Positions 2,741 to 17,718 of a DNA stretch of 64,000 bases are shown here, piece after piece. Position 1 is the first letter of the stretch; the number at the start of each line of letters is the position of its first letter. A program made the position numbers and the translations under genes. The notes below the pieces were generated by a model. That model worked only from the letters and a program-made list of their open reading frames with translations, was not told the origin of the DNA and ran no database searches. This stretch comes from Acidobacteriota bacterium (GTDB lineage Bacteria > Acidobacteriota > Aminicenantia > Aminicenantales > Saccharicenantaceae): contig JBDKSB010000001.1 of NCBI GenBank assembly GCA_039683095.1, forward strand, positions 186,001 to 250,000. The letters run 5' to 3'.

Positions 2741-2769
2741 TTGACTTCGGGGGGGAATGAAACTAAGAT
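2741..2769 (+). promoter_or_regulatory. Sigma-70-type promoter of leuS
   Basis: TTGACT at 2741-2746, a 17-base spacer, then TAAGAT at 2764-2769. Initiation would fall near 2776. It removes two apparent upstream starts of leuS, a TTG inside the -35 and an ATG at 2768 overlapping the -10. The same hexamers with the same spacing precede the peptide gene at 13140. Confidence 0.7.
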
Positions 2770-2800
2770 GAAAACCCATTCTTTCGAGGATTTTAATACC

Positions 2801-5269
2801 ATGATCGAGACCTACGACTTTGCCGCGATCGAGGCCAAATGGCGGAAGGCCTGGGAGAAAGAACGGGCTTTCGCCGCCGCCGCCGAGCCCGGCCGCCCGA
2901 AGTTCTACTGCCTGGAGATGTACCCGTATCCCTCCGGGCGCATCCACATGGGCCACGTCCGCAACTATTCCATCGGCGACGTCATCGCCCGCCAGAAGCG
3001 CATGGCCGGAGCCAACGTCCTGCACCCCATCGGCTGGGACGCCCTGGGCATGCCGGCCGAGAACGCGGCCATCAAGCACGGCACCCACCCGCAGACCTGG
3101 ACGCTCGAGAACGTCGCCCACATGCGCACCCAGCTCAAGCGCATGGGCATCAGCTATGACTGGGACCGCGAGGTCAACACCTGTCTGCCCGAATACTACA
3201 AGTGGAACCAGTGGATCTTCCTGCGCATGCTCGAACGCGGCCTGGCCTTCCGCAAGGAGAGCTGGGTCAACTGGTGCTCCCAGTGCCGGACCGTCCTGGC
3301 CAACGAGCAGGTCGTCGGAGGCGGCTGCTGGCGCTGCGAAACGCCCGTGACGCAGAAGAAGATGGAACAGTGGTTCCTCAAGATCACGGCCTACGCCGAC
3401 GAGCTCCTGTCCGGCCACGCCGCCCTGGGCAAGTGGCCCGAGCACGTCCTGCAGATGCAGAAGAACTGGATCGGCAAGAGCTCCGGCGCCCATGTCCGCT
3501 TCGGCCTGGACGGGACGTCCCGGGAGATCGAGGTCTTCACCACCCGCATCGACACGATCTACGGCGCGACCTTCCTCGTCCTCTCGGCCGAGCACCCCGC
3601 CGTCGCGGAGCTCATCCGCGGGCCGCGCGAGAAGGAGCTCGGCGCCTGGGTCGCCCGGACCGTGGCTGAGATGCGAAAGCGCCGGGACGTCGGCGAGACC
3701 GAGAAGGACGGCGTCGACACCGGCAGGAAGGCCGTCAACCCCTTCACCGGCGAGCGCATCCCGATCTGGATCGCCAACTATGTCCTGATGGACTACGGCA
3801 CGGGCGCCATCATGGCCGTCCCGGCCCACGACGCCCGCGACTTCGAGTTCGCCAAGGCCTATGGCATCCCCATCCGGACGGTCATCGCCCCGCCGGAGAG
3901 GGCCGGCGACAGGTTCGACGCCGAGCCCGCGGAACCGTTCGAGGAGCCGGGCGTCCTGGTCAACTCCGGCCCGTTCTCGGGCCTGCCCAACGACAAGGCC
4001 ATGGAGGAGATGGGGAAGCACGCCGAGGACAAGGGCTTCGGCCGGCGCAGCACCATCTTCCGCCTCCGCGACTGGGGCATCTCCCGCCAGCGCTACTGGG
4101 GGACTCCCATCCCGGTCATCTATTGCGACCGCTGCGGCATCGTCGGCGTGCCCGACAAGGACCTGCCCGTCGAGCTGCCCTTCGACGTCAAGCTGACCGG
4201 GGAGGAGGGCTCGCCCCTCGAGCGCCTCGACAGCTTCGTTCACACGACCTGCCCGAAGTGCGGCGGCCCGGCCCGCCGCGAGACGGACACGATGGACACT
4301 TTCGTCGATTCCTCGTGGTACTTCTTCCGCTACTGCTCGCCCCGCGAGACCTCGCTGCCGTTCCGGCCCGAGGACGCCGAGTGCTGGCTCCCCGTCGACC
4401 TCTACATCGGCGGCGTCGAGCACGCCATCCTGCACCTGATCTATTCGCGGTTCTTCACCAAGGTCCTGCGCGACTTCGGCCTGACCGGCATCTCCGAGCC
4501 CTTCCCGCACTACCTGGCCCAGGGCATGGTGACCATGGGCGGCTCGGCCATGTCCAAGTCCAAGGGCAACATCGTCGACCCCGACGAGATCCTGGTCCGC
4601 TACGGCGCCGACGCCCTGCGCGTGTTCATCCTCTTCGCCTCGCCGCCTGACAAGGAGTTCGCCTGGGCCGAGGAGGGGCTCGAGGGCTGCTACCGCTTCC
4701 TCGTCCGGGTCTGGACCATCGTCCTCGAGAACCTGGACCTTTTCGCCGGCCCCGCCGCCGCCGTCGATCCGTCCTCGGCCCTGGTCCGCAAGACCCATCA
4801 GACCATCCGCAAGGTGACCGAGGACATCGGCGTCCGCTTCCACCTCAACACGGCCGTCAGCTCGATCATGGAGCTTTACAACCTGACCCACAAGGAACGG
4901 GAGGCGATGCTGGAGACGCCCGCCGGACGGGCCGGCCTGCGGCTGGCCATCGAGTCGATGATCCAGCTGCTCTCGCCGTTCGCCCCGCACCTGGCCGAGG
5001 AGCTCTGGGAACGGACCGGGCACGCCGGCCTGGTCATGCTCTCGCCCTGGCCGGCCTGCGACCCGGTCCTGGCCCGCGACGAGATGGCCACGGTCGTCGT
5101 CCAGGTCAACGGCAAGGTCCGGGACCGGTTCGAAGCCGCGCCCGACACGCCGGAGGCCGAGCTGGAGGCCGCGGCCCTGGCCCGGCCCAAGGTCCAGGCG
5201 GCCCTCGGCGGCCAGGCGCCGCGCAAGGTCATCGCGGTCAGGAACAAGTTGGTCAACATCGTCAGCTGA
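2801..5269 (+). CDS. leuS: Leucyl-tRNA synthetase
   Basis: Class I synthetase charging tRNA-Leu, about 822 residues. The start ATG at 2801 is chosen because GAGGA lies 10 bases upstream, the promoter at 2741-2769 excludes earlier codons, and the protein then begins METYDF-like as in other LeuRS. The nucleotide-binding HIGH motif appears as IHMGH near residue 49, after YPYPSGR. The editing (CP1) region contains GTGAIMAVPAHDARD. The KMSKS loop near residue 584 reads AMSKSKGN, so the first lysine of the motif is alanine while the catalytic second lysine is kept. Paired cysteines in the ZN1 and later regions (WCSQC, CxxC pairs) are present. It is followed after 26 bases by lptE and then holA, the same neighbours as in many proteobacteria. 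Confidence 0.98.
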   Translation: MIETYDFAAIEAKWRKAWEKERAFAAAAEPGRPKFYCLEMYPYPSGRIHMGHVRNYSIGDVIARQKRMAGANVLHPIGWDALGMPAENAAIKHGTHPQTWTLENVAHMRTQLKRMGISYDWDREVNTCLPEYYKWNQWIFLRMLERGLAFRKESWVNWCSQCRTVLANEQVVGGGCWRCETPVTQKKMEQWFLKITAYADELLSGHAALGKWPEHVLQMQKNWIGKSSGAHVRFGLDGTSREIEVFTTRIDTIYGATFLVLSAEHPAVAELIRGPREKELGAWVARTVAEMRKRRDVGETEKDGVDTGRKAVNPFTGERIPIWIANYVLMDYGTGAIMAVPAHDARDFEFAKAYGIPIRTVIAPPERAGDRFDAEPAEPFEEPGVLVNSGPFSGLPNDKAMEEMGKHAEDKGFGRRSTIFRLRDWGISRQRYWGTPIPVIYCDRCGIVGVPDKDLPVELPFDVKLTGEEGSPLERLDSFVHTTCPKCGGPARRETDTMDTFVDSSWYFFRYCSPRETSLPFRPEDAECWLPVDLYIGGVEHAILHLIYSRFFTKVLRDFGLTGISEPFPHYLAQGMVTMGGSAMSKSKGNIVDPDEILVRYGADALRVFILFASPPDKEFAWAEEGLEGCYRFLVRVWTIVLENLDLFAGPAAAVDPSSALVRKTHQTIRKVTEDIGVRFHLNTAVSSIMELYNLTHKEREAMLETPAGRAGLRLAIESMIQLLSPFAPHLAEELWERTGHAGLVMLSPWPACDPVLARDEMATVVVQVNGKVRDRFEAAPDTPEAELEAAALARPKVQAALGGQAPRKVIAVRNKLVNIVS

Positions 5270-5295
5270 CGGCCCCCTGCCGGAGCGCGCCGACA

Positions 5296-5841
5296 ATGAA
5301 CGGACCGAACGATCGCCTGCGGGCCCGGGCCGCCGCGGCCGTCCTGGCCGCGGCCGCGCTGGCCGCCGCGGCGGCGGGCTGCGGCTATCGTCTCCGCGGC
5401 ACCGGCTCGGCCCTGCCGTCCCGGATCAGGACTATGAGCGTGCCCATGTTCAAGAACCAGACGACCCGTTACGAGCTCGACGTCAAGCTGACCCGGGCCG
5501 TCATCAACGAGCTCGTCGCCCGGGGCAAGGTCCGGATCGGCGACGACCCGGCCGCGGCCGACGCCGTGCTCGAGGGCGAGATCACCGGCTTCGTGGCCAG
5601 CCCCATCGGCTTCAGCGGCGCGAACCAGGCCGACAAGTACAACGTCACCGTGACGGCCCGGGTCACCCTGAGGGACCGGACCTCCGCCGAACCACTGTTC
5701 TCGAACCCGGCCTTCATCTATCAGCAGGAGTACGACGTTCCGCCCGGCTCGAGCTTCGAGTCGGTCCAGACCGAGGCCCTCGACAAGATCGCCGGGAAGT
5801 TCGCCCGCAGTCTCGTCGTCAGCATCCTCGAGGGGTTCTAG
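5296..5841 (+). CDS. lptE: LPS-assembly lipoprotein LptE
   Basis: A 181-residue lipoprotein that plugs the LptD barrel and helps insert lipopolysaccharide in the outer membrane. An Ala-rich signal peptide ends in a lipobox (AAAAAGCGYRLRG), so Cys at about position 36 would be lipidated. The CGYRLRG start of the mature protein, the segment IRTMSVPMFKNQTTRYELD and the alternating beta-strand pattern are typical of LptE. It lies between leuS and holA, the usual location, and its stop is one base before the holA ATG. The Lpt system is continued elsewhere in the window by the LptC/LptA fusion and LptB. Confidence 0.9.
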   Translation: MNGPNDRLRARAAAAVLAAAALAAAAAGCGYRLRGTGSALPSRIRTMSVPMFKNQTTRYELDVKLTRAVINELVARGKVRIGDDPAAADAVLEGEITGFVASPIGFSGANQADKYNVTVTARVTLRDRTSAEPLFSNPAFIYQQEYDVPPGSSFESVQTEALDKIAGKFARSLVVSILEGF

Positions 5842-5842
5842 C

Positions 5843-6988
5843 ATGTCCGCCCCGGCCTCCGGCGGGCTGCGCCTGGAGACGCTCCTGGCCGGCTATCTCT
5901 TCTTCGGGGAGGAGGACTACATCGCCGAGGAATTCCTGGCCGGCCTCGAAGGCCTGCTGGCGGAGGCGGCCGGCGGCGAGTTCCGCCTGACCCGCATGAG
6001 CCTCGACGATACGAAGTGGCGGGACGTGATCGACACGGCCCGGACCGCGCCGTTCCTGTTCGAACCCTGGCGGGCGCTGCTCGTCCGCGTGCCGGAGGGC
6101 AAGCCGTCCGAACGGGCGGGGGGCGGAAGGGCGAAGGACGAAGGCGACGAGGGCCGGGGCTCCAAGTACCTGTCGGCGCTCGACCAGAAGATCCTCAAGG
6201 AGTATTTCGCCGGCCCGCCGGAGCGGACCATCATCGTTGTCGTCCGGGCCGGCGGCATCCGCCGGGACGACGCTTTCGTCCGCTTCTTCCAGTCCCTGCC
6301 GAAGTCGGCGATGTCGGTCGTGGAGATGAAGCGCCTGACCGAATACCGGCTGATGCAGCGGGCCGACGAGAAGGCCCGCGCCCTGGGCAAGACGCTGTCA
6401 GCCGGGGCCAGGAAGCGGCTGTTCGAGCTGCTGGGCCAGGACCTGCGGCTGATGATGAACGAGATCGAGAAGCTGGCCGTGTTCGTCGGCGAGAAGAAGG
6501 GTATCGACGAGGGCGATGTCGACCTGGCCACGGCCGGGCAGCGGAGTTTCCAGGCCTACGAACTCGACGACGCCCTGGCCGCGGCCGATTTCGCCAAGGC
6601 GGCGTCCATACTCGGCGACCTCTTCGCCGAAAGCGAGCGGACCGGGATCATCATCGGCCGCCTGGCCGGCTTCCTCCGCAGCGTGCTGGCCGCCCAGACC
6701 TGGCTCAGGGAGAAGAGCCGGACCAAGGACGAGGTTTTCCAGACCTTTTTCCCGAATATCTCGCGGAACTTCGCCGACCTCTACAGGCGCAAATACGATG
6801 ATTTCTTCGGCACGGTCGAGAGCCTGGCCCCGGACGTGCTCAACGCCCTGCTGCGGAAGCTCCGCCAGCTGGACAGGACGCTCAAGACGACGGGTTCGAA
6901 GGATGCGGGCGAGAAGGTCCTCTTCGAGGCCTTCCTGAAGGAGTTCTGCCTGGCGCGGAAGGAGCGGACGCTTATTTCGCCGGAGTAG
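5843..6988 (+). CDS. holA: DNA polymerase III delta subunit
   Basis: Clamp-loader delta subunit that opens the beta clamp, 381 residues (family about 340). The N-terminal AAA+-like fold is seen in YLFFGEEDYIAEEF, the DNA_pol3_delta signature at the start, followed by the helical collar domain in the C-terminal half (AFQAYELDDALAAADFAKA-like region). A charged insertion near residues 90-110 (rich in Gly, Arg, Lys, Asp) is unusual and probably a surface loop. The last 17 bases overlap the end of the convergent rpsT gene. Confidence 0.93.
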   Translation: MSAPASGGLRLETLLAGYLFFGEEDYIAEEFLAGLEGLLAEAAGGEFRLTRMSLDDTKWRDVIDTARTAPFLFEPWRALLVRVPEGKPSERAGGGRAKDEGDEGRGSKYLSALDQKILKEYFAGPPERTIIVVVRAGGIRRDDAFVRFFQSLPKSAMSVVEMKRLTEYRLMQRADEKARALGKTLSAGARKRLFELLGQDLRLMMNEIEKLAVFVGEKKGIDEGDVDLATAGQRSFQAYELDDALAAADFAKAASILGDLFAESERTGIIIGRLAGFLRSVLAAQTWLREKSRTKDEVFQTFFPNISRNFADLYRRKYDDFFGTVESLAPDVLNALLRKLRQLDRTLKTTGSKDAGEKVLFEAFLKEFCLARKERTLISPE

Positions 6989-7250
6989 GGCCGAGGAGCG
7001 CGACCTGGCGGCTCAGCCGGGATTTGTAGCGGCCGCCGGTGTTCTTCTTGATGGCCCCCTTCTTGACCGCCTGGTCGATGGCCTTGAAGAGCGCGGGCAG
7101 CATCTTGACCGCGCCTTCCTGGTCCTTGTCCCCGATGGCTTCCCGGACCTTGCGCATCTCGGTGCGCAGGGCGGACTTGTTCTGGGTATTGACGGATTTC
7201 CGGCGCAAACTGCGGCGGTGCTGCCGTATCGCTGATTTGTGACGGGCCAT
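6972..7250 (-). CDS. rpsT: 30S ribosomal protein S20
   Basis: A 92-residue, strongly basic protein of the small ribosomal subunit, beginning MARHKSAIRQHRRSLRRK and carrying the conserved KKGAIKKNTGGRYKSRLS segment near the C-terminus. GAGGAG precedes the ATG at 7250 (spacing about 6). It has its own well-formed promoter at 7276-7304 and is convergent with holA, overlapping its 3' end by 17 bases. Confidence 0.97.
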   Translation of the reverse strand: MARHKSAIRQHRRSLRRKSVNTQNKSALRTEMRKVREAIGDKDQEGAVKMLPALFKAIDQAVKKGAIKKNTGGRYKSRLSRQVALLGPTPAK

Positions 7251-7275
7251 ATTTTTCTCCTCTTAAAAGGGGCCT

Positions 7276-7304
7276 ATGATAGAATATCGAGGCCTTAAAG
7301 TCAA
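7276..7304 (-). promoter_or_regulatory. Sigma-70-type promoter of rpsT
   Basis: On the minus strand: TTGACT (7304-7299), 17-base spacer, TATCAT (7281-7276). The start codon follows about 25 bases after the -10, leaving room for the visible GAGGAG ribosome-binding site. Confidence 0.7.
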
Positions 7305-7361
7305 ACGGCCGCCGGGTTTGGGGGAAGCCGCTCCCCGCAGCCGGCGGGCGCGGAGAAGCCC

Positions 7362-7826
7362 GTGAAGATCGTGCTCCAGCGGGTCCGGGAGGCCCGCGTC
7401 GACGTCGAAGGCCGGACCGCCGGCCGCATCGGCCGAGGCCTCTGCCTCCTGGTCGGGGTCGAGAAGGGAGACGGCGAGGCGGACGCCGAATACCTGGCCC
7501 GGAAGTGCGTCGAACTGCGCGTCTTCCCCGACGCCCAGGGCAAGATGAACCTGTCGCTGGCCGAGGCCGGCGGCGACGTCCTGGCCGTCTCCCAGTTCAC
7601 CCTGGCGGGCTCGGTGCGGAAGGGCCGCCGGCCGAGCTTCGACGGCGCGGAGGAGCCGGCCCGGGCGGCCGCCCTCTTCGATCATTTCGTCGGGGCCGTC
7701 GAGGCCGTCGGCGTGACCGTGGAAACCGGCGTCTTCCAGGCGATGATGGAGGTCCATATCGTCAACGACGGGCCGGTGACGTTCATCCTCGAGTCGAGGC
7801 CGGGCGGCGGCCGGGAGGAGGGGTGA
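7362..7826 (+). CDS. dtd: D-aminoacyl-tRNA deacylase
   Basis: Hydrolyses D-aminoacyl-tRNA to protect translation from D-amino acids; 154 residues, the family norm. Both active-site motifs are present: SQFTL near residue 80 and NDGPVT near residue 137 (the Gly-cisPro loop). It starts at a GTG (7362) preceded by GGAGAAG. The gene is divergent from rpsT. A hairpin without a T-tract begins at its stop codon, and the peptide-modification cassette follows 175 bases later. Confidence 0.96.
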
Positions 7827-7849
7827 GAGGGCCGGAACCGTCTCACCCC
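7820..7849 (+). terminator. GC-rich hairpin after dtd
   Basis: GGGGTGAGA at 7820-7828 pairs perfectly with TCTCACCCC at 7841-7849, and the loop contains CGGAACCG, which can pair again. There is no T-run, so intrinsic termination is uncertain, but the position at the dtd stop codon fits a 3' end. The following 150 bases up to 8001 show GC palindromes and no convincing promoter. Confidence 0.45.
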
Positions 7850-8001
7850 CCGGGGGGAGGCCCGGGGCCCGAAAATCACCCCCCTTTTCCCCGGCCGCGG
7901 CCATGCCCCGGGACGCCCCGGGCTTTACCCTGTGACCGGGTCCGGGCCGGAGTCTGCCGGACGCACTGGGATGATCCCGGCCGCGCCCAGATGGAGAATG
8001 C

Positions 8002-9978
8002 ATGAGCCGCTATGTGAGCCGGCGCGAGGTCCGGGACTATCCGCGGCTTCCCCTCAAGGGGAGCCTCGACCTGACCTATCGCTGCGGCAACGATTGCCGC
8101 CATTGCTGGCTGAGGCTCGCCCCGGACGCCGCCGAAAAGAGGGCCGAGCTTTCCTTCGACGAGATCCGCCGGATCGCCGGGGAAGCCCGGAAGATGGGCT
8201 GCCGGGAATGGACGATCTCCGGCGGCGAGCCCATGCTCCGCCCCGACTTCCCCGAGATCTTCGCCGAACTCGCCGCCCAGGCTTCCTGGTACACGCTGAA
8301 CACGAACGGGACCCTGATCACGCCGGCCATCGCCCGGCTGCTGAGGCGCCCCGGCGTCAAGCTCGTGGCGCTCTACGGCGCGACCGCCGCCGTCCATGAC
8401 GCGGTCACGCGCGCGCCGGGATCCTTCGCCGCCCTGGAGCGGGGCATCGCCTGTCTCCGCGAGGCGGGCGCGGCTTTCACGGTCCAGGTCGTTCCGATGC
8501 GGACGAACATCGCCGAATTCGAGGCCATGGTCCGCCTGGCCGAGTCTTGGAGCCCGAGCTGGAGGGTCGGGGCGGCCTGGCTTTACCTCTCCGCGGCGGG
8601 CGACGCGAGCCGGAACCGCGACATCATGGCCGAGCGCCTGGACCCGGCCCGGATCGTCGAGATCGACGAGGACTGGGCCGGCGGCGCCGGGCCGGACGGC
8701 GACGGCCGGGAGGGCTGCGCCGCGGCGGCCGCGGCCGGGGGCCGCGGGCTCTATGCCGACTGCCTGGCCGGCCGCCGCGATTTCCACGTCGATCCCTACG
8801 GCGGTCTGAGCTTCTGCTCGTTCGTCAAGGACCCCGGACTGCGGCTCGACCTGAGGGCGACGAGCTTCGCCGAGGCCTGGGAAGAGCGCCTGCCCCGACT
8901 GGCCGGCGCCGTCGTCCCGTCGAAGGCCTACGCCGACGGCTGCGGCGCCTGCGACCTGCGGGCCGGCTGCCGCTGGTGCCCGGTCTTCGCCTACCTCGAG
9001 CATCGCGACCATTCGGCCAGGATCGGCTATCTCTGCGACATCGCCCGGGAGTCCCGGCGGGCCAGGACGGCCTGGCTCGGGACGCACCGCCGCCGCTTCC
9101 GCGTCGCGGGCCTGACGATCGACGTCGAGGCCGACCGGCCCATCACCGGAGACACCTTCGAACCGAAATTCGACCTCTTCCGCGTCGAGCCGGACGGGGC
9201 GCCGGATATCGTCCTGCGCCACCATTTCGCCCTGCCTGACCTCGGGGCCTTCGACCTGGGCCGGGAAGTCTACCGCCATCCCCCCTGGGCCGTTTACCGC
9301 AAGGGCCGTTCGTGGATCTACCTCATGATCTCGCCGGACCCCGGCGACGCGACGGTCCACCGGGTCATGGTCTTCGACGACGGCCACACCAGGGGGCGGA
9401 TCTACAGCCCCTCGGACGCCTTCTTCCGCGCCGGCCGGCTCGATTCGCTGGCCCTGCTGCCCTCGGACCAGCTTATCCTGGCCCGGGCCCTGCCGGCCTT
9501 CGGCGGCCTCTTCGTCCACGCCTCGGCGGTCGACATGGGCGGCCGCGGTCTCGTTTTCGCCGGGGCCTCCGGGGCGGGCAAGTCGACCATCGTCAAGCTC
9601 ATCGGCGGCCGGGGCCGGGTCCTCTGCGACGACCGGGTCATCGTCCGCAGAAGCCCCGGCGGCTTCCGCGTCCACGGCACCTGGAACCACGGCGAGATCC
9701 CGGTCGTGTCCGCCGGCTCGGCGCCCGTCCGGGCCGTTTTCTTCCTGCGACAGGCGGCGGCGAACCGGCTGGACCGCGTCGACGACCCCAAGGCCGTCCT
9801 GCGGGACTTCCTGCCCCGGCTGGTCCGGCCGCTCCTCTCGGCCGACTGGTGGGAGCGGGCCCTGGGCCTGGCCGGCGAGATCGTCCGCGAGGCGCCCTTC
9901 TACGACCTGTCCTTCGACAAGAGCGGGGCCATCGCCGGCGTTCTCGAAGAATTCCTCCGGAAAGAGGGCCGGCCGTGA
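8002..9978 (+). CDS. Radical SAM/SPASM maturase fused to an HPr-kinase-like P-loop domain
   Basis: A 658-residue two-part protein. Residues 1 to about 350 are a PqqE-like radical SAM enzyme: Cys28-x3-Cys32-x2-Cys35 (CGNDCRHC) for the SAM-binding cluster, ISGGEPMLR for the SAM Gly-Glu motif, and a SPASM domain with Cys314, 317, 323, 326 (CGACDLRAGCRWC) and a later YLCD, for auxiliary clusters. Residues about 360-658 resemble HPr kinase: GASGAGKST with Lys527, then LCDDRVIVRR, as HprK has ADDxV after its P-loop. Separate P-loop proteins (ScmC) accompany radical SAM pairs in SynChlorMet-type cassettes as I recall them; here the two are one chain. The ATG has GGAG 7 bases upstream. Its stop overlaps the next start (GTGA). 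Which residue is modified or phosphorylated is unknown. Confidence 0.9.
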   Translation: MSRYVSRREVRDYPRLPLKGSLDLTYRCGNDCRHCWLRLAPDAAEKRAELSFDEIRRIAGEARKMGCREWTISGGEPMLRPDFPEIFAELAAQASWYTLNTNGTLITPAIARLLRRPGVKLVALYGATAAVHDAVTRAPGSFAALERGIACLREAGAAFTVQVVPMRTNIAEFEAMVRLAESWSPSWRVGAAWLYLSAAGDASRNRDIMAERLDPARIVEIDEDWAGGAGPDGDGREGCAAAAAAGGRGLYADCLAGRRDFHVDPYGGLSFCSFVKDPGLRLDLRATSFAEAWEERLPRLAGAVVPSKAYADGCGACDLRAGCRWCPVFAYLEHRDHSARIGYLCDIARESRRARTAWLGTHRRRFRVAGLTIDVEADRPITGDTFEPKFDLFRVEPDGAPDIVLRHHFALPDLGAFDLGREVYRHPPWAVYRKGRSWIYLMISPDPGDATVHRVMVFDDGHTRGRIYSPSDAFFRAGRLDSLALLPSDQLILARALPAFGGLFVHASAVDMGGRGLVFAGASGAGKSTIVKLIGGRGRVLCDDRVIVRRSPGGFRVHGTWNHGEIPVVSAGSAPVRAVFFLRQAAANRLDRVDDPKAVLRDFLPRLVRPLLSADWWERALGLAGEIVREAPFYDLSFDKSGAIAGVLEEFLRKEGRP

Positions 9979-11150
9979 CGGCGAAGAGCTACGTTCGCAA
10001 GGTCCGGTCCGGCGAGGACCGGCTTTGGCGGGCCTCCGCCCCGGCCCTGGCCCGCCTGGACGTCGAGCTGACCGAGCGCTGCAACTTCGCCTGCCGCCAT
10101 TGTTCGGTCGGCCTGCCGGCCGGCGACCGCGCCGCCCGGGCCCGGGAGTGGCCGGCGGCGCGATGGAAGGCCCTGCTGAGCGAAGCCGCGGACCTGGGCT
10201 GCCTGGTCGTCCGGCTGACCGGCGGCGAGCCGGCGCTCCGCGACGACTTCGAGGACATCTACGTCCACGCCCGGCGGCTCGGCCTGCGGGTCATGCTCTT
10301 CACCAACGCCGCGCTCGTCACGCCCGGCCTGGCCCGGCTCCTGGCCGACGTGCCGCCGCTCGAGGCGGTCGAGGTCTCGGTCTACGGCCTGACGCCGGAA
10401 AGCTCGGAAGCGGCTACGGGCACGCCCGGCTCGTTCGCCGCGACGAGGCGCGGCCTGAGCCTGCTCGGCGAACGGGGCGTGTCCTTCGTGGTCAAGGGCG
10501 CGGTCCTGCCGCCGACACGAGGCGAGATGGACGGGCTCGAAGCCTGGGCTGCCGGCCTCCCCGGCCTGGCCGGGCCGGTCTCCTGGGTCACGCTCCTCGA
10601 CCTCCACTCGCGCCGGGACGCGGCCCGCAGCGCCGTTATCGCCGGGCTGAGGATGGAGGCCGGCGAGTTCGTCCGCCTGGCCCGCCGCGGCGGCGAGGCC
10701 GCGGTCGACGAATGGCGCGAGTTCTGCGGCCGCGACGGCCGGCCCCGCGGCGACCGCCTGTTCAGCTGCTTGCCCGCGGCGGCCTCGGCCGCGGTCGACG
10801 CGTACGGCCGGCTCCAGTATTGCCTCGGCCTGCGCCATCCCGACACCGTCTACGACCTGGCCGCGGGCTCGCTCCGCGAGGCCGTGACGGATTTCCTGCC
10901 GCGGCTCCGGGAGCGGCGCGCGGCCGGCCCGGCCTATCTCGAGCGCTGCGGCCGCTGCTTTCTCAAGGGCCTCTGCCAGCAATGCCCGGCCAAGTCGTGG
11001 GCCGAGCACGGCACGCTGGACACGCCGGTCGAATATTTCTGCGATGTCGCCCACGCCCAGGCCGTCGCGGCCGGCCTTCTCGAGCGGGGGAAGAAGGCCT
11101 GGACCGTCAGCGACGGCGCCGCGCGGGCCGCGAGGAGGAACGGAGCATGA
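9975..11150 (+). CDS. Radical SAM/SPASM peptide maturase (second of three)
   Basis: A 391-residue PqqE-like enzyme. The start is taken as the GTG at 9975, which overlaps the upstream stop and has AGAGG nearby; the open frame extends much further upstream only as a shadow of the first gene. Cys36-x3-Cys40-x2-Cys43 (CNFACRHC) binds the SAM cluster, LTGGEPALR is the SAM-contact strand, and the SPASM C-terminal part has RCGRCFLKGLCQQCP and EYFCD. An aspartate/arginine-rich middle (SRRDAARS) is of unknown role. Its stop overlaps the ATG of the PqqD-like gene, so the cassette is translated as a coupled unit. It is clearly related to the third radical SAM protein at 11952 and could act on the same peptide at a different residue. 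Confidence 0.92.
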   Translation: MTAKSYVRKVRSGEDRLWRASAPALARLDVELTERCNFACRHCSVGLPAGDRAARAREWPAARWKALLSEAADLGCLVVRLTGGEPALRDDFEDIYVHARRLGLRVMLFTNAALVTPGLARLLADVPPLEAVEVSVYGLTPESSEAATGTPGSFAATRRGLSLLGERGVSFVVKGAVLPPTRGEMDGLEAWAAGLPGLAGPVSWVTLLDLHSRRDAARSAVIAGLRMEAGEFVRLARRGGEAAVDEWREFCGRDGRPRGDRLFSCLPAAASAAVDAYGRLQYCLGLRHPDTVYDLAAGSLREAVTDFLPRLRERRAAGPAYLERCGRCFLKGLCQQCPAKSWAEHGTLDTPVEYFCDVAHAQAVAAGLLERGKKAWTVSDGAARAARRNGA

Positions 11151-11464
11151 CGGAGAAGATCGATCTGAACAAGGCCTACCTGCCGTCCGAGGAGGTCGTC
11201 GTCCGCGAGATCGAGGGGGAGATCGTCATCGTTCCCCTGACCTCCGGCATCGGCGACCTCGAGGACGAGCTGCTGACCCTCAACGAGACCGGGCGCGACA
11301 TCTGGTCTCGGCTCGATGGGGCGCGTCCCCTGGCCGAGATCGTCCGGGACCTCGAAGCCGGCTACGACGCCGCGGACGGGCTCGTCCGGGAGGACGTCGT
11401 CGGGTTCCTCCAGGAGCTCTGCGACCGGCGGATGATCGTGGCCAAGGACCGGGACAAGGACTGA
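11147..11464 (+). CDS. PqqD-like peptide-chaperone (RiPP recognition element)
   Basis: A 105-residue acidic protein of the PqqD family, which binds the leader of a precursor peptide and presents it to a radical SAM enzyme. Visible family features are LLTLNETGRDIWSRLDGARPLAEIVRDL and a C-terminal helix-rich FLQELCDRRMI, the usual winged-helix RRE arrangement. The ATG at 11147 overlaps the upstream stop (ATGA) and has GGAGGAACGGAG in front. It sits centrally in the cassette, between two radical SAM genes and the peptidase. It is the main reason for reading the cluster as a RiPP pathway. Confidence 0.88.
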   Translation: MTEKIDLNKAYLPSEEVVVREIEGEIVIVPLTSGIGDLEDELLTLNETGRDIWSRLDGARPLAEIVRDLEAGYDAADGLVREDVVGFLQELCDRRMIVAKDRDKD

Positions 11465-11467
11465 GAC

Positions 11468-11950
11468 GTGGACGAAACGCCCCGCCCGCGGCCTTCCCTC
11501 GGCGACGGCTATTCCGTGGCCGGGCTCATCCGGGCGGTCCTGGAGCGGGGCCGGCCCTGCCGCTACGAGGCCCGGGGCTCGAGCATGCACCCCGCCGTCA
11601 AGGACGGGGACGTCGTCACCCTCCGGCCCGTCGGCGCGGCCGGGCCGCGCCTGGGCGATATCGTGGCCTTCGTTCTCCCCGGGACGGAAGCCGTCCGCCT
11701 CCACCGCGTGGTCGGGATCGCGGACGGGAGATATCTCCTTAAGGGCGACAACGGCCTGGTCGACGACGGCGAGGTCGGGCGGCAGGACATCCTTGGCGCG
11801 GTCGTCCGGATCGAGCGGAACGGCCGGGCTCTCCGTGTCGGGCCGGGCTTCCTGGCCGCCGGCCTGGCCCGCCTGTCGCGGTCCTCCTGGTTCACGCGGT
11901 ATTCCATGCGGCTCCGCCGGGCCCTCGGCCTCCGGGACCGGAAGGTTTGA
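11468..11950 (+). CDS. S26-family (Sec11/SipW-like) peptidase, apparently soluble
   Basis: A 160-residue signal-peptidase-fold protein. GSSMHPAVKDGD (nucleophile Ser39) and LGDIVAF are the first boxes. The general-base box reads VRLHRVVG, with His79 where bacterial leader peptidase has lysine, as in the Ser-His Sec11/SipW branch (S26B). LLKGDNG follows. No membrane helix is visible at either end, unlike true leader peptidases. It starts at GTG 11468 with weak AAGGA upstream, 3 bases after the PqqD-like stop. In context it may cleave the modified peptide from its leader, but this is inferred only from location and family. Confidence 0.82.
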   Translation: MDETPRPRPSLGDGYSVAGLIRAVLERGRPCRYEARGSSMHPAVKDGDVVTLRPVGAAGPRLGDIVAFVLPGTEAVRLHRVVGIADGRYLLKGDNGLVDDGEVGRQDILGAVVRIERNGRALRVGPGFLAAGLARLSRSSWFTRYSMRLRRALGLRDRKV

Positions 11951-11951
11951 G

Positions 11952-13079
11952 ATGGGCAAGGACTTCGTCGTCCGTCGCCCGCTCGCCGGGTTCGGCCTGT
12001 GGGAGAAGATGGCCGGCAGCCGGGCCGTCTTCAGCTTCGACTACGAGACGACGGCCCGCTGCAATCTCGATTGCCGGCACTGCTACATCAACGCCCCGGC
12101 CGGGGACAGGGCGGCCCGGAAGCGCGAGCTCTCCGTCGACGAGGCCGGCCGCATAGCCGCCGAGGCCGCGGCCCAAGGCGCCGTCTGGTGCCTCCTGACC
12201 GGCGGCGAGCCCCTCCTCCGCAAGGATTTCTTCGATCTCTACCAGGCGATCCTGAGCAAGGGCCTGCTCGTTTCGCTCTTCACCAACGCCACGCTCGTCA
12301 CCGACGAGCACGTCCGTTTCTTCAGGAAGTTCCCGCCCCGGGACATCGAGGTGACCGTTTACGGCGTGACCCGCGAGACCTACGAGCGGGTGACCAGGAC
12401 GCCGGGCTCCTTCGACGCTTTTAAGAGAGGGCTCGACCGGCTCCTGGCGAGCGGCGCCGCCGTCCGGCTCAAGGCCATGGCCCTGCGCTCGAACAAGCAC
12501 GAGGTCCCGGCCATCGGCGACTTCTGCCGGGCCCGGACGAAGGATTATTACCGCTTCGACCCGCAGCTGCACCTTCGCTTCGACCGGGACGAGGCCCGGA
12601 ACGCCCTGATCCGGGCCGAGCGGCTCAGCCCGCGGGAGGTGGCCCGGCTGGAGCGGTCCGATCCCGAGCGCTTCGGGGCCCTCACGGACGCCTGCGCCGA
12701 GATCCTGCCGGCGGCGCCGGCGGAGGGGACCCCGGTCCCGGACTGCCGGCACATCTTCCGCTGCGGCGTCGGCCGGATGAGCTTCGTCGTCGGCCCGGAG
12801 GGGCTGCTGCGGCCCTGCCTGTCCCTCCATCATCCGGATTTCCTCTATGACCTGCGGAAAGGAAGCCTGGACGACGCCTGGACCCGCTTCCTGCCCGCCG
12901 CGCTCCGGAAGGAGTCCCACAGGCCGGAATACCTGGAAAAGTGCGGCCGCTGCCCGATCGTCAACCTCTGCCTCTGGTGCCCGGCCCACGCCTACCTCGA
13001 GACGGGGGAGCTCGACCGGCCGGTCGAGGAGTTCTGCCGGGTGGCCGAGGCCCGGGCGGAGGGGCTAAAATCAGGTTGA
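11952..13079 (+). CDS. Radical SAM/SPASM peptide maturase (third of three)
   Basis: A 375-residue PqqE-like enzyme. Cys37-x3-Cys41-x2-Cys44 (CNLDCRHC) binds the SAM cluster, LTGGEPLLRKDF is the SAM motif, and SPASM cysteines lie in KCGRCPIVNLCLWCPA and EEFCRV. Additional cysteines in DCRHIFRCGVGR and LRPCLSLHHP complete the usual auxiliary-cluster set. The ATG at 11952 follows GGAAGG. The gene ends 60 bases before the small peptide gene, and its stop codon lies inside the -35 box of that gene's promoter. Sequence is closest to the second radical SAM protein of the same cassette, so the two probably arose by duplication. Confidence 0.92.
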   Translation: MGKDFVVRRPLAGFGLWEKMAGSRAVFSFDYETTARCNLDCRHCYINAPAGDRAARKRELSVDEAGRIAAEAAAQGAVWCLLTGGEPLLRKDFFDLYQAILSKGLLVSLFTNATLVTDEHVRFFRKFPPRDIEVTVYGVTRETYERVTRTPGSFDAFKRGLDRLLASGAAVRLKAMALRSNKHEVPAIGDFCRARTKDYYRFDPQLHLRFDRDEARNALIRAERLSPREVARLERSDPERFGALTDACAEILPAAPAEGTPVPDCRHIFRCGVGRMSFVVGPEGLLRPCLSLHHPDFLYDLRKGSLDDAWTRFLPAALRKESHRPEYLEKCGRCPIVNLCLWCPAHAYLETGELDRPVEEFCRVAEARAEGLKSG

Positions 13080-13104
13080 CTTTGCCGGAAGTTCGGCTTA
13101 AGAT
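13076..13104 (+). promoter_or_regulatory. Sigma-70-type promoter of the cassette peptide gene
   Basis: TTGACT at 13076-13081, 17-base spacer, TAAGAT at 13099-13104, identical in both hexamers and spacing to the leuS promoter. Transcription would begin near 13111, leaving about 29 bases with GGAGGA at 13125-13130 before the ATG at 13140. The maturase stop codon (13077-13079) lies within the -35 box. Confidence 0.65.
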
Positions 13105-13139
13105 ATTGTCAAGGAAGCGTTTCTGGAGGATTGACCGCC

Positions 13140-13322
13140 ATGAAAAAACGATGGCAGACGCCGGAGCTCATTGTCCTTTTCAAGGGGCGTCCGGAGGAGA
13201 CCCTTTTGTGCCATTGCAAGCATAAAACGGCTCCGCCCGTGGCGCCGTACAGCCACAAGGACAACTGCACGTCGAACCCCCTCTGCTGCCAGGCTTGCTC
13301 CGCAGTCACTTACGCGTCCTGA
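13140..13322 (+). CDS. Candidate RiPP precursor peptide, Cys-rich, 60 residues
   Basis: Short gene directly after the maturases. A frame start at TTG 13131 is excluded because GGAGGA (13125-13130) would touch it; ATG 13140 has ideal 9-base spacing. The first half is leader-like (KKRWQTPELIVLFKGRPEE, then LL), with the W-x-x-PEL-x-V-L and PEE pattern that I recall from other radical SAM-associated peptides. The second half holds six cysteines (24, 26, 43, 49, 50, 53) with His, Asn, Ser and Thr: CHCKHK, then DNCTSNPLCCQACSAVTYAS. No signal peptide or membrane helix is seen. It has its own promoter, so it could be expressed above the enzymes. The modification and final product are unknown. It could also be a metal-binding peptide, but its location argues for a substrate role. 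Confidence 0.78.
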   Translation: MKKRWQTPELIVLFKGRPEETLLCHCKHKTAPPVAPYSHKDNCTSNPLCCQACSAVTYAS

Positions 13323-13330
13323 TCCGTCCG

Positions 13331-13367
13331 CCCGCGGGAAGATTAGCCGCGGCCGGCGCGCCGCGGG
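13331..13367. terminator. GC-rich inverted repeat between convergent genes
   Basis: CCCGCGG at 13331-13337 can pair with CCGCGGG at 13361-13367, just after the peptide gene stop (13322) and before the end of the convergent HEAT gene (13380). No T-run follows on either strand, so a terminator role is only likely by position. Confidence 0.35.
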
Positions 13368-13379
13368 ACGAACTCGGCA

Positions 13380-13895
13380 TCAGCTGAACCGCACCCCGCT
13401 CGTCCGGCCGATGGCTTCCTCGGCGGCCGCCCGCACATAAGGATTGGCGTCCTTTTTCAGCCGGACGAGGAGCCGGACCGATTCCTCGCCGCCGATCAGG
13501 CCCAGGGCCTCGGCCGCCGCCCGGCGGACGTCGGCGTTGGGATCGCCGACCGCCGTTCCGATCCCGGGCAGGGCCTCGCGAAGGCGCCGCCTTCCGATGA
13601 CCGCCAGGGCCGCGCTCCGGGCGTACCAGGGAGGAAGATGGAGCCGGCGGACGGCCCATCCGGGCCTGACCTCGTCCCTGGCGCAGAGCTCGCGGACGAC
13701 GAGATCGCGGATGCCCTCGTTGGGATCGGCCAGAGATTCCCAGAGGAGCTCCTCGGACCAGGGCCGGGCCAACTTGCCGCAGGCGGCGATGATCCTCTGC
13801 CGCCTGGCCTTGTCGGGGGTCCGGCCGAGCTTTTGGACGAAGGCGAGGCAGACGGGAGAGGGCGTCGGTTCGTCGGGAGGGCGGCGCTTGTCCAT
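13380..13895 (-). CDS. HEAT-repeat protein
   Basis: A 171-residue protein made of alpha-alpha repeats: SLADPNEGIRDLVVRELC, then VGDPNADVRRAAAEALGLIGGEESVRLLVRLKKDANPYVRAAAEEAIGR, a textbook HEAT/PBS-lyase-like pattern. The ATG at 13895 lies two bases after the ribBA stop, so it is translated with the riboflavin operon. The open frame reaches further upstream only as a shadow of ribBA. No catalytic motif is visible; such repeats usually bind proteins. Its relation to flavin synthesis is unknown. Confidence 0.8.
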   Translation of the reverse strand: MDKRRPPDEPTPSPVCLAFVQKLGRTPDKARRQRIIAACGKLARPWSEELLWESLADPNEGIRDLVVRELCARDEVRPGWAVRRLHLPPWYARSAALAVIGRRRLREALPGIGTAVGDPNADVRRAAAEALGLIGGEESVRLLVRLKKDANPYVRAAAEEAIGRTSGVRFS

Positions 13896-13897
13896 CC

Positions 13898-15115
13898 TCA
13901 GACCATGTCCAGGATGTGGCCCATCTTCTCTTTCTTGGTCTTCAGATAGCGCCTGTTGCTGGGATTCGGCGGGACCTCGATCGGCACGCGCTCGACGATC
14001 TCCAGGCCGTAGCCGGCCAGGCCGACGAACTTCCGCGGGTTGTTCGTGATAAGGCGGAGCCGCCGGACGCCGAGGGCGACCAGGATCTGGGCGCCGACGC
14101 CGTAATCGCGCTGGTCGGTCTTGAAGCCCAGCTTGTGGTTGGCCTCGACCGTGTCGGCGCCCTGGTCCTGCATGGCGTAGGCCCGGATCTTGTTGACCAG
14201 GCCGATGCCGCGGCCCTCGTGGTCCAGCATGTAGAGCACGACGCCCCGGCCTTCCTTCTCGATCATCTCCATGGACAGGTGGATCTGGTCGCCGCAGTCG
14301 CAGCGGGCCGAGCCGAACACGTCGCCGGTCAGGCACTGGGAGTGGGCCCGGACAAGCACCGGCCGGCCGTCGCCGACTTCCCCCTTGACCAGGGCGACGT
14401 GCGGCTTGTGGCGGATGATGTCCTCGAAGACATGAAGGCGGAAATGACCGTGGGCCGTGGGCAGGTCGGTTTCCGTGAGCTTGCGGACGAGGGTCTCGTG
14501 GCTGACGCGGTAGCGGATGAGCTCGGCGATCGTCAGGATGGGGATGTCGAACCGCCGGCTGACCTCTTCGAGCTGGGGCCGGCGGGCCATGGTCCCGTCC
14601 TCGTTCATGACCTCGCAGATGACGCCGGCCGGGACGAGCCCGGCCATGCGGGCCAGGTCCACGGAGGCCTCGGTCTGGCCGGCTCGGGACAGGACGCCGC
14701 CCTCGACTGCCCGCAGGGGGAAGATGTGGCCCGGGCGGGCCAGGTCGTCCGGCTTGGTCGCCGGGTCGATCGCGGCCAGGATGGTCCGGGCCCGGTCGGG
14801 GGCCGAGATGCCCGTCGTCACGCCTTTCTTGGCGTCGATGGACACGGTGAAGGCCGTCTGGAAACGGGCCGTGTTCTCGCTGACCATGAGCGGCAGCTGC
14901 AGCTCCTCGAGACGCTCGTGGGTCAGGGGCAGGCAGATCAGGCCGCGGCCGTGCCGGGCCATGAAATTGACGATCTCCGGGGTGGCTTTCTCGGCGGCAA
15001 CCATCAGGTCGCCCTCGTTCTCGCGGTCCTCGTCGTCGACGATGATGATCATCCGGCCGGCCCGGACGGCCTCCAGCGCCGTTTCGACGGAGACGATCGG
15101 TTGTTCTTCGGTCAT
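13898..15115 (-). CDS. ribBA: Bifunctional DHBP synthase / GTP cyclohydrolase II
   Basis: Makes both precursors of riboflavin: 3,4-dihydroxy-2-butanone 4-phosphate from ribulose 5-phosphate and the pyrimidine from GTP; about 405 residues. The RibB half has [11 protein letters not shown] near residue 30, HIFPLRA and [12 protein letters not shown]. The RibA half has a zinc site [10 protein letters not shown] and [14 protein letters not shown]. Starting at ATG 15115 gives the usual N-terminus; the upstream extension to 15193 runs into ribE and is unlikely. It follows ribD and ribE in the same operon. ribH, which encodes lumazine synthase, is not in this cluster or elsewhere in the window. Confidence 0.96.
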
Positions 15116-15134
15116 GGAAGTGAAGGGGCCTTTC

Positions 15135-15731
15135 TCAGCCCTCTTTGCGTCCTCGCGACAGCCAATTATACACGTATTTCCCGACCATGTCACACTCGAG
15201 GTTGACCTTGGCCCCGGCCCGCAGGCCGCCCAGGTTCGTCGCCGCCAGCGTGGCCGGGACGAGCTCGACCTCGAGGGCCGAGGCCGAGAGCGCGGCGATA
15301 GTCAGGCTGACGCCGTCGACCGCGACCGACCCCTTTTCGACGAAAAACGGCCGGAGCGCGGCCGGGAACGACACGGCCAGGCGCCGTCCGGGCGGCCGGG
15401 AGACGGAGCGCAGGACCCGGCCCACGCTGTCGACGTGGCCGCTGACGAGGTGCCCGCCGAGCGGGGCGGCCAGGGTCAGCGGCAGCTCGAGGTTGACCGG
15501 GGCGCCCGTGCGGAGGCCGCCCAGCGTGGACTTGGCCAGGGTCTCCCGCGAGACGTCGAAATGGACCGCCCCCGGCGCGGCCTCGACGACGGTCAGGCAG
15601 ACGCCGTTGACGGCGACGCTGCCGCCCGGGGCGACCTTGGCCGTGAGGCCCGGCGCCTCGACGGCCAGACGGGAGCGGCCGCCGCGGAACCCAAGTACGC
15701 GGCCCCGGTGGGAGATGATGCCGGTGAACAT
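15135..15731 (-). CDS. ribE: Riboflavin synthase, alpha subunit
   Basis: Dismutates two 6,7-dimethyl-8-ribityllumazine molecules to riboflavin; 198 residues. Starts [12 protein letters not shown], the canonical MFTGI beginning, and contains two tandem lumazine-binding domains, each with a VNGVCLTV- or VDGVSLTI-type strand and a NLE(L/C) segment. The ATG overlaps the ribD stop by 4 bases. Its neighbours ribD and ribBA complete the set apart from lumazine synthase. Confidence 0.96.
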
Positions 15732-16831
15732 CAGAAGTATCCTTCCACGATCGTGTCGTCCCCGATCGAGAACGAGCGGGTCCGCTTCAGGGGGATGGCC
15801 TGGGCGATGCGGTCAGCCCCCCGGCCGCCGAGAAGGCCGGGGGCTGTGGCGCCGCCGACAAGGACGGGCGCGAAGGTCAGGACGGCCTTGTCCGCGCGGT
15901 TCTCCTCGATGAAGGACGTGAACAGGCGGCTTCCGCCCTCGACGAGCAGGGCGGCGATCTCGCGGCGGCCGAGCTCGGCCAGGACGCGTTCGAGCGTCCA
16001 GGCCGCGGCGCCGTCCGGCGGAGGTACGACCTCGACGCCGCGGGCCTCGAGCGCCCGGGCCCTGTCCGCCGGCGCCTCCCGCCCGGCGAAGACGAGGACG
16101 GGCCCGCGGTCGAGCGTCTCGAGCATCCGGGCCCCGGCCGGGAAGCGCAGCCGCGAGTCGAGGACGGCCCGGGCGAGCTTCTTGCCGGGCCAGGCCGGGT
16201 GGCGCACGGTCAGGAGCGGATCGTCGGCGAGGAGGGTGCCGGAGCCGATCATCACGGCGTCCTGCTCGCCGCGAAGGAGATGGACGTAGTTGCGCGTGGC
16301 CGCCGACGTGATCCACTTTGAGTCGCCCGTCCGGCTGGCGATCTTGCCGTCGAGCGTCAGGGCCGCCTTGAGCGTGACGAAGGGGACCCTGGCCGTGATG
16401 AACTTGGCGTGGACCTCGTTGAGCGCGGCGTTCCGCTCGGCCAGGAGCCCGGCCTCGACAGCGAGACCAGCCTCTTCGAGCCGGCGGATGCCCTTAGTCC
16501 GGACCAGGGGATTCGGATCGACGGCCGAGACGACCACCCGGGCCAGCCCGGCCGCGATGACCGTGTCGACGCACGGCGGCGTGCGGCCCCAGTGGACGCA
16601 GGGCTCGAGGGTCAGGTAGAGGGTCGCGCCCCTGGCCCGGCGGCCGGCCCGGCCCAGGGCGACAATTTCGGCGTGCGGCCGGCCCGGCCCCTCGTGATAG
16701 CCGTGGCCGACGAGCTTTCCGTCGCGAACGACGACTGCCCCGACGAGCGGGTTGGGGCTCGTCCGGCCGCGGGCCTTTTCGGCCAGGCCGTAGGCCATCT
16801 CCATCCAGGCCAGGTCGGCGGGCCGGGTCAT
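15731..16831 (-). CDS. ribD: Bifunctional riboflavin deaminase / reductase
   Basis: Deaminates and then reduces the pyrimidine intermediate of riboflavin synthesis; 366 residues. The deaminase domain has HAEIVAL (zinc ligand His and catalytic Glu) and [12 protein letters not shown] (two zinc Cys). The reductase domain runs from [14 protein letters not shown] through WITSAATR and [13 protein letters not shown]. The ATG overlaps the ftsY stop by 4 bases. The catalytic residues look intact. Confidence 0.97.
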
Positions 16832-17718
16832 GCGAGCAGGGCCTCCACGAATTCGCGCGGCGAGAAGTCGGCGATATCGTCCTCGCCTTCGCCCAGGCCG
16901 AGGTAGCGGATGGGCAGGCCGAGCTCGGCCGCGACGGCGATGGCCGCGCCGCCCTTGGCCGTGCCGTCGACCTTGGTCAGGAAGATGCCGGTCAGCCCGG
17001 AGAATTTCAGGAACTCCCGGGCCTGGAGAACGGCGTTCTGCCCGACCGTGGCGTCGAGGACGAGCAGGGATTCGACGCGGGCCCCGGGCAGCTCGCGGAC
17101 GACGACGCGCCGGACCTTCTCCAGCTCGGCCATGAGGTTGGCGTTCGTGTGGATGCGCCCGGCGGTGTCGACAAGCAGGATGTCGCCCCGCTGGGCCTTG
17201 AACGATCGGACGGCGTCGAAAACGACCGAGGCCGGGTCGGCGCCGTAAGAGCCCTTGACCACCGGGACGTCGAGCTTCCGGCCCCAGATGGCCAGCTGCT
17301 CCTGGGCCGCGGCCCGGAAGGTGTCGGCGGCCGCGAACATCACGCGCCGGCCGTCGCGCTTGAACCGGGCCGCGAGCTTGGCGGCCGAGGTGGTTTTGCC
17401 TCCGCCGTTGACGCCGACCATCAGGATGACTGTCTGTTCCGCGGCCGGGGCGGGCCGGCCGTTCGCCGGGGACAACAGGATGACCAGCTCGTCCCTGAGC
17501 GCGGCCTCGAGCCCGGCCTGATCCTCGGCCCTGCCGGTCTTGGCCTTCAGCGCGCCGACGATCTTCTCCGTGGCCGCGACGCCGACGTCGGCCTGGATGA
17601 GGGCCTCTTCGAGGCCTTCCAGGATCTCGTCGCGGCGCTTGCCGCTGCGGAGCAGGTCCCCGACCCGGCGGAAGGCGTCGCGGGTCCGGACGAGCTTTTC
17701 CTTGAGACTTGCGAACAT
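16828..17718 (-). CDS. ftsY: Signal recognition particle receptor FtsY
   Basis: SRP receptor GTPase docking ribosomes at the inner membrane; 296 residues, the short form with no acidic A-domain. The N domain (EALIQADVGVAATEKIV) is followed by G1 GVNGGGKTT, the DTFRAAAQEQL insertion-box motif, DTAGR (G3), TKVDGTAKGG (G4) and GLGEGEDDIADF at the end. The third Gly of the G1 loop (normally Val, Ser or Thr) is a minor variant that keeps the GxxxxGKT pattern. The promoter at 17728-17756 has its -10 only 9 bases before the ATG, so the mRNA is probably leaderless. First gene of the ftsY-ribD-ribE-ribBA-HEAT operon. Confidence 0.96.
   Translation of the reverse strand: MFASLKEKLVRTRDAFRRVGDLLRSGKRRDEILEGLEEALIQADVGVAATEKIVGALKAKTGRAEDQAGLEAALRDELVILLSPANGRPAPAAEQTVILMVGVNGGGKTTSAAKLAARFKRDGRRVMFAAADTFRAAAQEQLAIWGRKLDVPVVKGSYGADPASVVFDAVRSFKAQRGDILLVDTAGRIHTNANLMAELEKVRRVVVRELPGARVESLLVLDATVGQNAVLQAREFLKFSGLTGIFLTKVDGTAKGGAAIAVAAELGLPIRYLGLGEGEDDIADFSPREFVEALLA

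Follow-up and report, generated by a model that had tools for sequence, protein, structure and literature searches.

A putatively soluble Sec11/SipW-branch peptidase as the probable leader peptidase of a radical SAM peptide cassette in Acidobacteriota

The ORF at 11468-11950 (+ strand, GTG start, 160 aa) of the window, the 64,000-nucleotide stretch of an Acidobacteriota bacterium contig that was analysed here, raises the question of what a signal-peptidase-like protein without a visible membrane anchor does within a peptide cassette. The initial annotation had described it as a soluble Ser-His protein of the Sec11/SipW branch of S26 proteases and suggested that it removes the leader of a precursor encoded nearby. 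Pfam and NCBIfam matches, conservation and fold point to an S24/S26-fold serine peptidase (hereafter the S26 protein) that probably serves as the dedicated, RRE-dependent leader peptidase of a radical SAM RiPP cassette. In radical SAM RiPP pathways the enzyme that removes the leader is often not known, and the cassette offers a testable trio of substrate, enzyme and RRE (RiPP recognition element).

The S26 protein resembles the Sec11/SipW/archaeal signal peptidase I group in fold and in its GxSMxP, HRVV and GDN...D boxes. These boxes read GSSM40HP, with the nucleophilic Ser39, VRLH79RVV, and KGD94NGLVDD100, the third of Sec11 type, and Ser39, His79 and Asp100 (plus Asp94) correspond to the Sec11/SipW arrangement. 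Pfam Peptidase_S24 scores above its cut-off (26.0 bits, 23.3) and Peptidase_S26 below (17.8 bits, 22.9). The top NCBIfam model is TIGR02228, archaeal-type signal peptidase I (38.1 bits, under the cut-off of 51.85), and Sec11C and Sec11A are the top matches of the sequence profile in the PDB, so the branch proposed earlier fits the sequence. The AlphaFold2 model (mean pLDDT 79.9, pTM 0.73) has a predicted fold of the signal-peptidase/S24 type, and its VIA matches include SipA (Z 10.8, 2.4 Å, 89 residues), E. coli SPase I (Z 10.2, 2.2 Å, 95 residues), LexA (Z 10.2, 2.9 Å, 87 residues), Sec11C (Z 9.2, 2.8 Å, 94 residues) and Sec11A (Z 8.7). The model also has an N-terminal helix at residues 17-26 and C-terminal helices at 127-136 and 140-157. 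Another small protease, the Ni-SOD maturation protease (TIGR02754), gives a weak profile match and was rejected at 19.3 bits against a cut-off of 63.25.

The catalytic residues are conserved in 48 S26 ORFs from 46 loci (numbered here with the prefix L), which were chosen among the better-scoring matches and are not a random sample; the cassette HMMs were built on the same 46 loci. Ser39 is Ser in 48/48 aligned ORFs and His79 is His in 46 of the 47 with a letter there, and the earlier proposal that these two residues are catalytic, which their non-conservation would have contradicted, therefore stands. Asp94 is kept in 47/47 and Asp100 in 43/47 of the ORFs with a letter. Leu20 is invariant in alignment A1 (which leaves out L037, a truncated copy, and L038 and L040, which have no context) and in alignment A4 (without L088, with a partial L089), and is Leu in 39 of the 44 sequences with a letter in the wider S26 set. 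The sole His79 exception, L128 (6294-6755), has Arg, and no PqqD, HprK or radical SAM gene was recognised near it.

Unlike the Sec11/SipW/archaeal enzymes, the S26 protein is a short form of 160 aa, lies within a peptide cassette and has no visible N-terminal transmembrane anchor. Its highest 19-residue Kyte-Doolittle mean is 1.09, and the homologues range over 0.68-1.52 (18 of A1) and 0.58-1.92 (18 of A4; the sets overlap); by hydropathy, neither it nor any homologue scored shows an N-terminal anchor. LepB controls in the same scan reach 1.99-2.14 (8/14 loci where LepB was located), with the host's own LepB, a separate protein in this genome (174 bits), at 2.13. The initial annotation had seen no membrane helix and had proposed looking for anchors in homologues; both its observation and this check agree. 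The S26 protein is inferred to be cytosolic because it has no N-terminal anchor.

The S26 gene is fourth among six co-directional genes. The first (8002-9978, + strand) encodes a 658-aa radical SAM protein (Radical_SAM, 71 bits) with a C-terminal HprK-like kinase domain at residues ~360-658. It is followed by a second radical SAM protein of 391 aa (9975-11150, +; 64.2 bits), whose GTG start overlaps the preceding stop, and by a 105-aa PqqD-like protein (11147-11464, +; Pfam PqqD 57.0 bits, cut-off 23.4), the candidate RRE, whose profile matches the solved RREs PqqD (3g2b), TbiB1 (5v1u), PbaB1 (9x90) and LppB (9x8z). After the S26 gene come a third radical SAM protein of 375 aa (11952-13079, +; 76.7 bits) with a SPASM-like C-terminus (SPASM 19.0 bits, below the cut-off of 21.5) and the putative precursor (13140-13322, +). 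None of the six genes (8002-13322) encodes an exporter or an NTP transferase, and the five other than S26 have no protease domain in Pfam.

The order and direction of the cassette are the same in eight of ten genus relatives. The first gene of L029 is cut by the contig end, the contig of L027 stops short of where the precursor would lie, and that of L037 ends within S26, with masked bases interrupting its first gene. This conserved setting, precursor included, bears out the earlier statement that the S26 gene belongs to a peptide cassette. The housekeeping genes on either side, which by similarity appear to be dtd, rpsT, holA, leuS and the rib genes with ftsY, recur as well: dtd lies upstream in 9/10 of the relatives' loci and ribBA downstream in 7/10, the absences being loci cut short. 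Wherever the contigs extend far enough, the cassette is found at one genomic site, with dtd/rpsT/holA on one side and the rib genes and ftsY on the other (window 2741-17718; L021-L028, L031 and L037), and this shared site across the genus suggests vertical inheritance.

The putative precursor has 60 aa, with six Cys (24, 26, 43, 49, 50 and 53), a C-terminal Ser60 and a W5xxP8xL10 motif in the leader. It has no NCBIfam or Pfam family at E <= 0.1; among relatives' precursors two gave weak matches below cut-off (14.2 and 12.8 bits) and seven further ones none. The precursor is 75-92% identical in eight genus relatives, and the S26 protein 53.6-76% in the eight scored of the ten with a match. Precursor dN is 0.05-0.23 against dS of 0.53-1.05, and S26 dN is 0.15-0.43 against dS of 0.46-1.06 (8 of 10 genus relatives in both cases). 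Both genes are under purifying selection, since dN is below dS for each, and the selection is stronger on the peptide.

Related precursors were found with patterns that ignored the C-terminus but required [WY]xxP or PxL...E, which makes the presence of the leader motif circular. The resulting 27 distinct precursors include 18 that do not belong to the genus and exclude duplicate records (L072-L079, L085) and the Butyrivibrio peptide described below; a precursor HMM was trained on 15 of the 27, and two others are weak by HMM (L121, E 0.08; L120, E 0.2). The last residue is Ser in 25 of the 27 and Thr in the other 2. Background C-termini are Ser in 9.9% and Thr in 4.3% (14% together) of the 1,094 ORFs with 120 aa or more in the same loci, spurious ORFs included. 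The segment between leader and end is very variable among the precursors from outside the genus. The WOR-3 locus L083 has two precursor genes (9368-9547 and 10731-10919), one ending in Ser and the other in Thr.

These termini suggest that the HprK-like domain phosphorylates the precursor at its C-terminal Ser/Thr, as in paeninodin. HprK-like kinases of phosphorylated lasso peptides modify a C-terminal Ser (PMC9266682). For the C-terminal 299 residues of the fused protein, structure prediction gives a fold of PEPCK type (mean pLDDT 87.3), with a VIA match to PEPCK at Z 14.3 (4.3 Å, 245 residues). All of the best 50 matches listed are PEPCK, and no HprK chain is among the matches listed; HprK and PEPCK share a fold. 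Family scores are below cut-offs (Hpr_kinase_C 17.5 bits, 33.3; ScmC 46.2-48.1 bits, 125). H506, K527, D543 and D544 are invariant in the 12 sequences of alignment A6 (alignment A5 minus L083, which has masked bases), and by their position and general features of HprK we take them to be the published HprK-like His-Lys-Asp-Asp motif. Across a wider set of non-duplicate ORFs that carry a P-loop, Glu takes the place of the second Asp in L111, L113 and L120, and it does so in the contig-cut L115 too. The P-loop is present in L039, L089 and L119; contig ends truncate L115 and L087, and L037 (the same record as L088) and L083 have masked bases.

Popov et al. (May 2026; PMC13381572) describe linear polyphosphorylated peptides (LPPs) of Bacillota, whose clusters encode a precursor with a YxxPxV leader, LppB as a free-standing RRE, the HprK-like kinase LppK and LppS, a peptidase resembling SipW; an NTP transferase and an MsbA-like transporter are also among the core genes. 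LppS cuts the leader only with LppB, and its S29A, H68A and D93A variants are inactive (PMC13381572). In the published model the leader-RRE complex sits on the helix at the N-terminus of LppS, and a mutated I10 in LppS lowers cleavage (PMC13381572). The spacing from I10 to S29 is 19 residues in LppS as published, as it is from Leu20 to Ser39 in the S26 protein. With LppS compared by its published description, the window system shares with the LPPs a peptidase of SipW/archaeal type that is encoded beside a discrete RRE and a kinase of HprK type, a [Y/W]xxPx[L/V] leader, a Ser-His-Asp set, and an N-terminal helix able to dock an RRE-leader complex. It differs from the LPPs as described in its three radical SAM enzymes, the fusion of one of them to the kinase, a Cys-rich core and non-Bacillota hosts. 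Where the LPP leader motif as published is YxxPxVLxHQxIxFETxxS, the window precursor has WQTPELIVLFKGRPEET; it carries the W motif and PEE rather than FET, and HQxIxFET is absent. LPPs are described as restricted to Bacillota, and the word "radical" does not occur in the main text (PMC13381572).

Leader removal by the S26 protein is proposed because LppS, as published, removes a leader with the same types of partner. The PqqD-like RRE would bind the WxxPxL leader of the 60-aa precursor, to judge from the motif. The three radical SAM enzymes may then modify the Cys-rich core, and the first of them, through its HprK-like domain, may phosphorylate the C-terminal Ser; such a fused enzyme would link radical SAM chemistry to C-terminal phosphorylation. 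Finally, the RRE-bound leader would dock on helix 17-26 near the N-terminus of the S26 protein, which includes Leu20, and Ser39/His79/Asp100 would cut it, most likely near E20/T21, leaving the six Cys in the core. The position of the scissile bond is a guess by analogy: the LPP spacing of 16 residues from Tyr to the scissile bond, taken from the motif as published (PMC13381572), would give a cut at E20/T21, a leader of residues 1-20 or 1-21 (13140-13202, +) and a core of 39-40 residues with all six Cys. Comparison of precursors shows Glu at exactly this spacing in 22/22 WxxP precursors, followed by T, S, N, H, A, R, V or F. This variable next residue is unlike the conserved T of LPPs, and the cut site may therefore lie elsewhere. 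The five YxxP precursors carry Ala (4) or Ser (1) at the position that the LPP spacing points to, both of them small residues, as is the Thr found there in LPPs.

The S26 protein could instead be a cassette protease with another role, either clearing unmodified or misfolded precursor or trimming the core or follower. The varying residue after the conserved Glu20 would fit such a role, as would the strong conservation in the genus of the whole precursor (75-92%) and not of the leader alone. It is nevertheless improbable, since the characterised relative LppS, with the same partners, removes the leader (PMC13381572), and no Pfam protease domain in the remaining five genes would take over that step. 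Rather unlikely, though less so, is a peripheral membrane protein held by the C-terminal helices, a location compatible with leader removal. The window protein, with its hydropathy maximum of 1.09 and no exporter in its cassette, gives little reason for it, but the C-terminal helices are present in the model, and the hydrophobic C-terminal segments of a few distant relatives (L081, 1.79; L087, 1.92) leave room for peripheral or C-terminal membrane contact. LppS is also reported to be poorly soluble (PMC13381572).

Two further readings would remove the protein from peptide maturation altogether, and both are very unlikely. An ordinary SipW/archaeal-type signal peptidase for exported proteins, lying here by chance, would explain why the best relatives of known structure are Sec11A/C and the top NCBIfam model TIGR02228, but it was rejected on the lack of an N-terminal anchor and the separate LepB; the place of the gene beside PqqD and radical SAM genes is also conserved genus-wide and in other phyla. 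A role as a regulator, or as a scaffold without activity, similar to S24/LexA or SipA proteins would fit the Peptidase_S24 score and the presence of LexA and SipA among the top fold matches. Self-cleaving repressors of the LexA/S24 type have a Ser-Lys dyad with Lys as the general base. The S26 protein has His79 in that position and no DNA-binding domain in Pfam, on which grounds a repressor of this type was rejected, and its Ser, His and Asp are all kept, against an inactive scaffold. A dedicated leader peptidase remains the probable role of the S26 protein.

Two other known systems share parts of the cassette. The paeninodin-type lasso peptides (PadeK, ThcoK, SyanK; PMC9266682) have a His-Lys-Asp-Asp HprK-like kinase, precursors ending in Ser, a discrete RRE and a WxxP leader; the kinase motif is found in 12/12 kinases of A6, and the window precursor ends in Ser60. 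They differ from the window cassette, whose six genes have no macrolactam synthase C or B2 cysteine protease domain in Pfam and encode radical SAM enzymes instead. The SynChlorMet (Scm) group resembles it by NCBIfam model names (HprK-like, PqqD-like and two radical SAM/SPASM proteins), but all scores are far below cut-offs (ScmC 46.2-48.1/125, ScmD 22.8/100, ScmE 89.0/400, ScmF 83.0/400). Membership as Scm, lasso peptide or LPP proper was rejected, since the defining features, such as the NTP transferase and MsbA-like transporter of LPPs, which the six genes at 8002-13322 lack, were not found.

Searches of the open-licence literature found nothing on SynChlorMet, nothing that joins Aminicenantes, RiPP and radical SAM, nothing that combines most of PqqD, S26, S24, HprK, radical SAM and SPASM, and no SipW-like leader peptidase in radical SAM cassettes outside Bacillota with a radical SAM/kinase fusion. 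In the same literature, SipW and RiPPs are both mentioned in PMC13381572 and in a review on Bacillus subtilis (PMC13274455). The enzyme type has been known since 2026, and the cassette setting with radical SAM enzymes outside Bacillota appears to be the new element. The cassette may represent a separate RiPP class of Acidobacteriota (Aminicenantes) and a few other phyla, defined by an RRE, three radical SAM enzymes, C-terminal phosphorylation by a radical SAM/HprK fusion and cytoplasmic Sec11-type cleavage, with a product that is perhaps intracellular; this wider proposal is tentative, and somewhat less than an even chance is given to it. The product is nearly fixed within the genus and the window cassette has no exporter, so it may act inside the cell. 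If true, it would be more like a cofactor or metal-binding peptide than an antibiotic.

The S26 protein was found in 11/13 genomes of the genus, the host included, in 28/94 genomes of the order (E <= 1e-10) and in 68/396 sampled genomes of the phylum (E <= 1e-15); the wider genome search used 11 of the 18 S26 alignment rows. Related loci occur in MAGs labelled Aminicenantes, Acidobacteria/Acidobacteriota/Acidobacteriales, Lentisphaerae, WOR-3, Chloroflexi and Actinomycetota, with S26 as the sole recognised gene, near a contig end, in two Chloroflexi loci. Among the 48 S26 ORFs, 28 have PqqD within 1.5 kb, 31 have HprK within 6 kb and 35 have a radical SAM gene within 6 kb, and all three are close by in 26. 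PqqD (<=4.5 kb) and radical SAM (<=6 kb) are not both present for 17/48, several of them near contig ends, and the S26 family may therefore not be tied to such cassettes. If this S26 type is fixed in radical SAM cassettes of other phyla, the processing module extends well beyond Bacillota.

Variant loci show the RRE, kinase and peptidase in other combinations. In L119, L121, L124 and L039 the leader starts with YxxP and the kinase, fused to a radical SAM protein in the window (8002-9978), has a gene of its own. The S26 or HprK matches from plasmids and phages were all distant. The locus L143 on the Butyrivibrio fibrisolvens plasmid pNP243 has an HprK-like protein, a YVKPEL peptide, PqqD, an S24/S26 peptidase and ABC transporters, with no recognised radical SAM gene. 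Its S26 protein has GES instead of GDN, and its Cys-rich YxxPEL peptide ends in Trp. This Trp-ending peptide, together with the LPP kinases, which act on an internal Ser (PMC13381572), counts against C-terminal phosphorylation as a general rule. On a Phocaeicola massiliensis plasmid (L142), an HprK-like gene adjoins S26, again with no recognised radical SAM gene. These plasmid loci and the separate-kinase clusters suggest that RRE, kinase and S26 peptidase together make up a portable module for processing, coupled in the window to radical SAM chemistry.

The Butyrivibrio pNP243 cluster lies beside capsule genes. Some related loci contain additional genes: L081 (10818-14681) has an extra radical SAM protein and an ABC transporter, and L080 (10499-11671) an NTP_transf_5 protein, two functions that LPP clusters encode as well in their transporter and NTP transferase. 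A methyltransferase gene, which the window cassette lacks, lies beside or within the cassette in L034 (8540-9367), L111 (10687-11463) and L113 (10528-11310).
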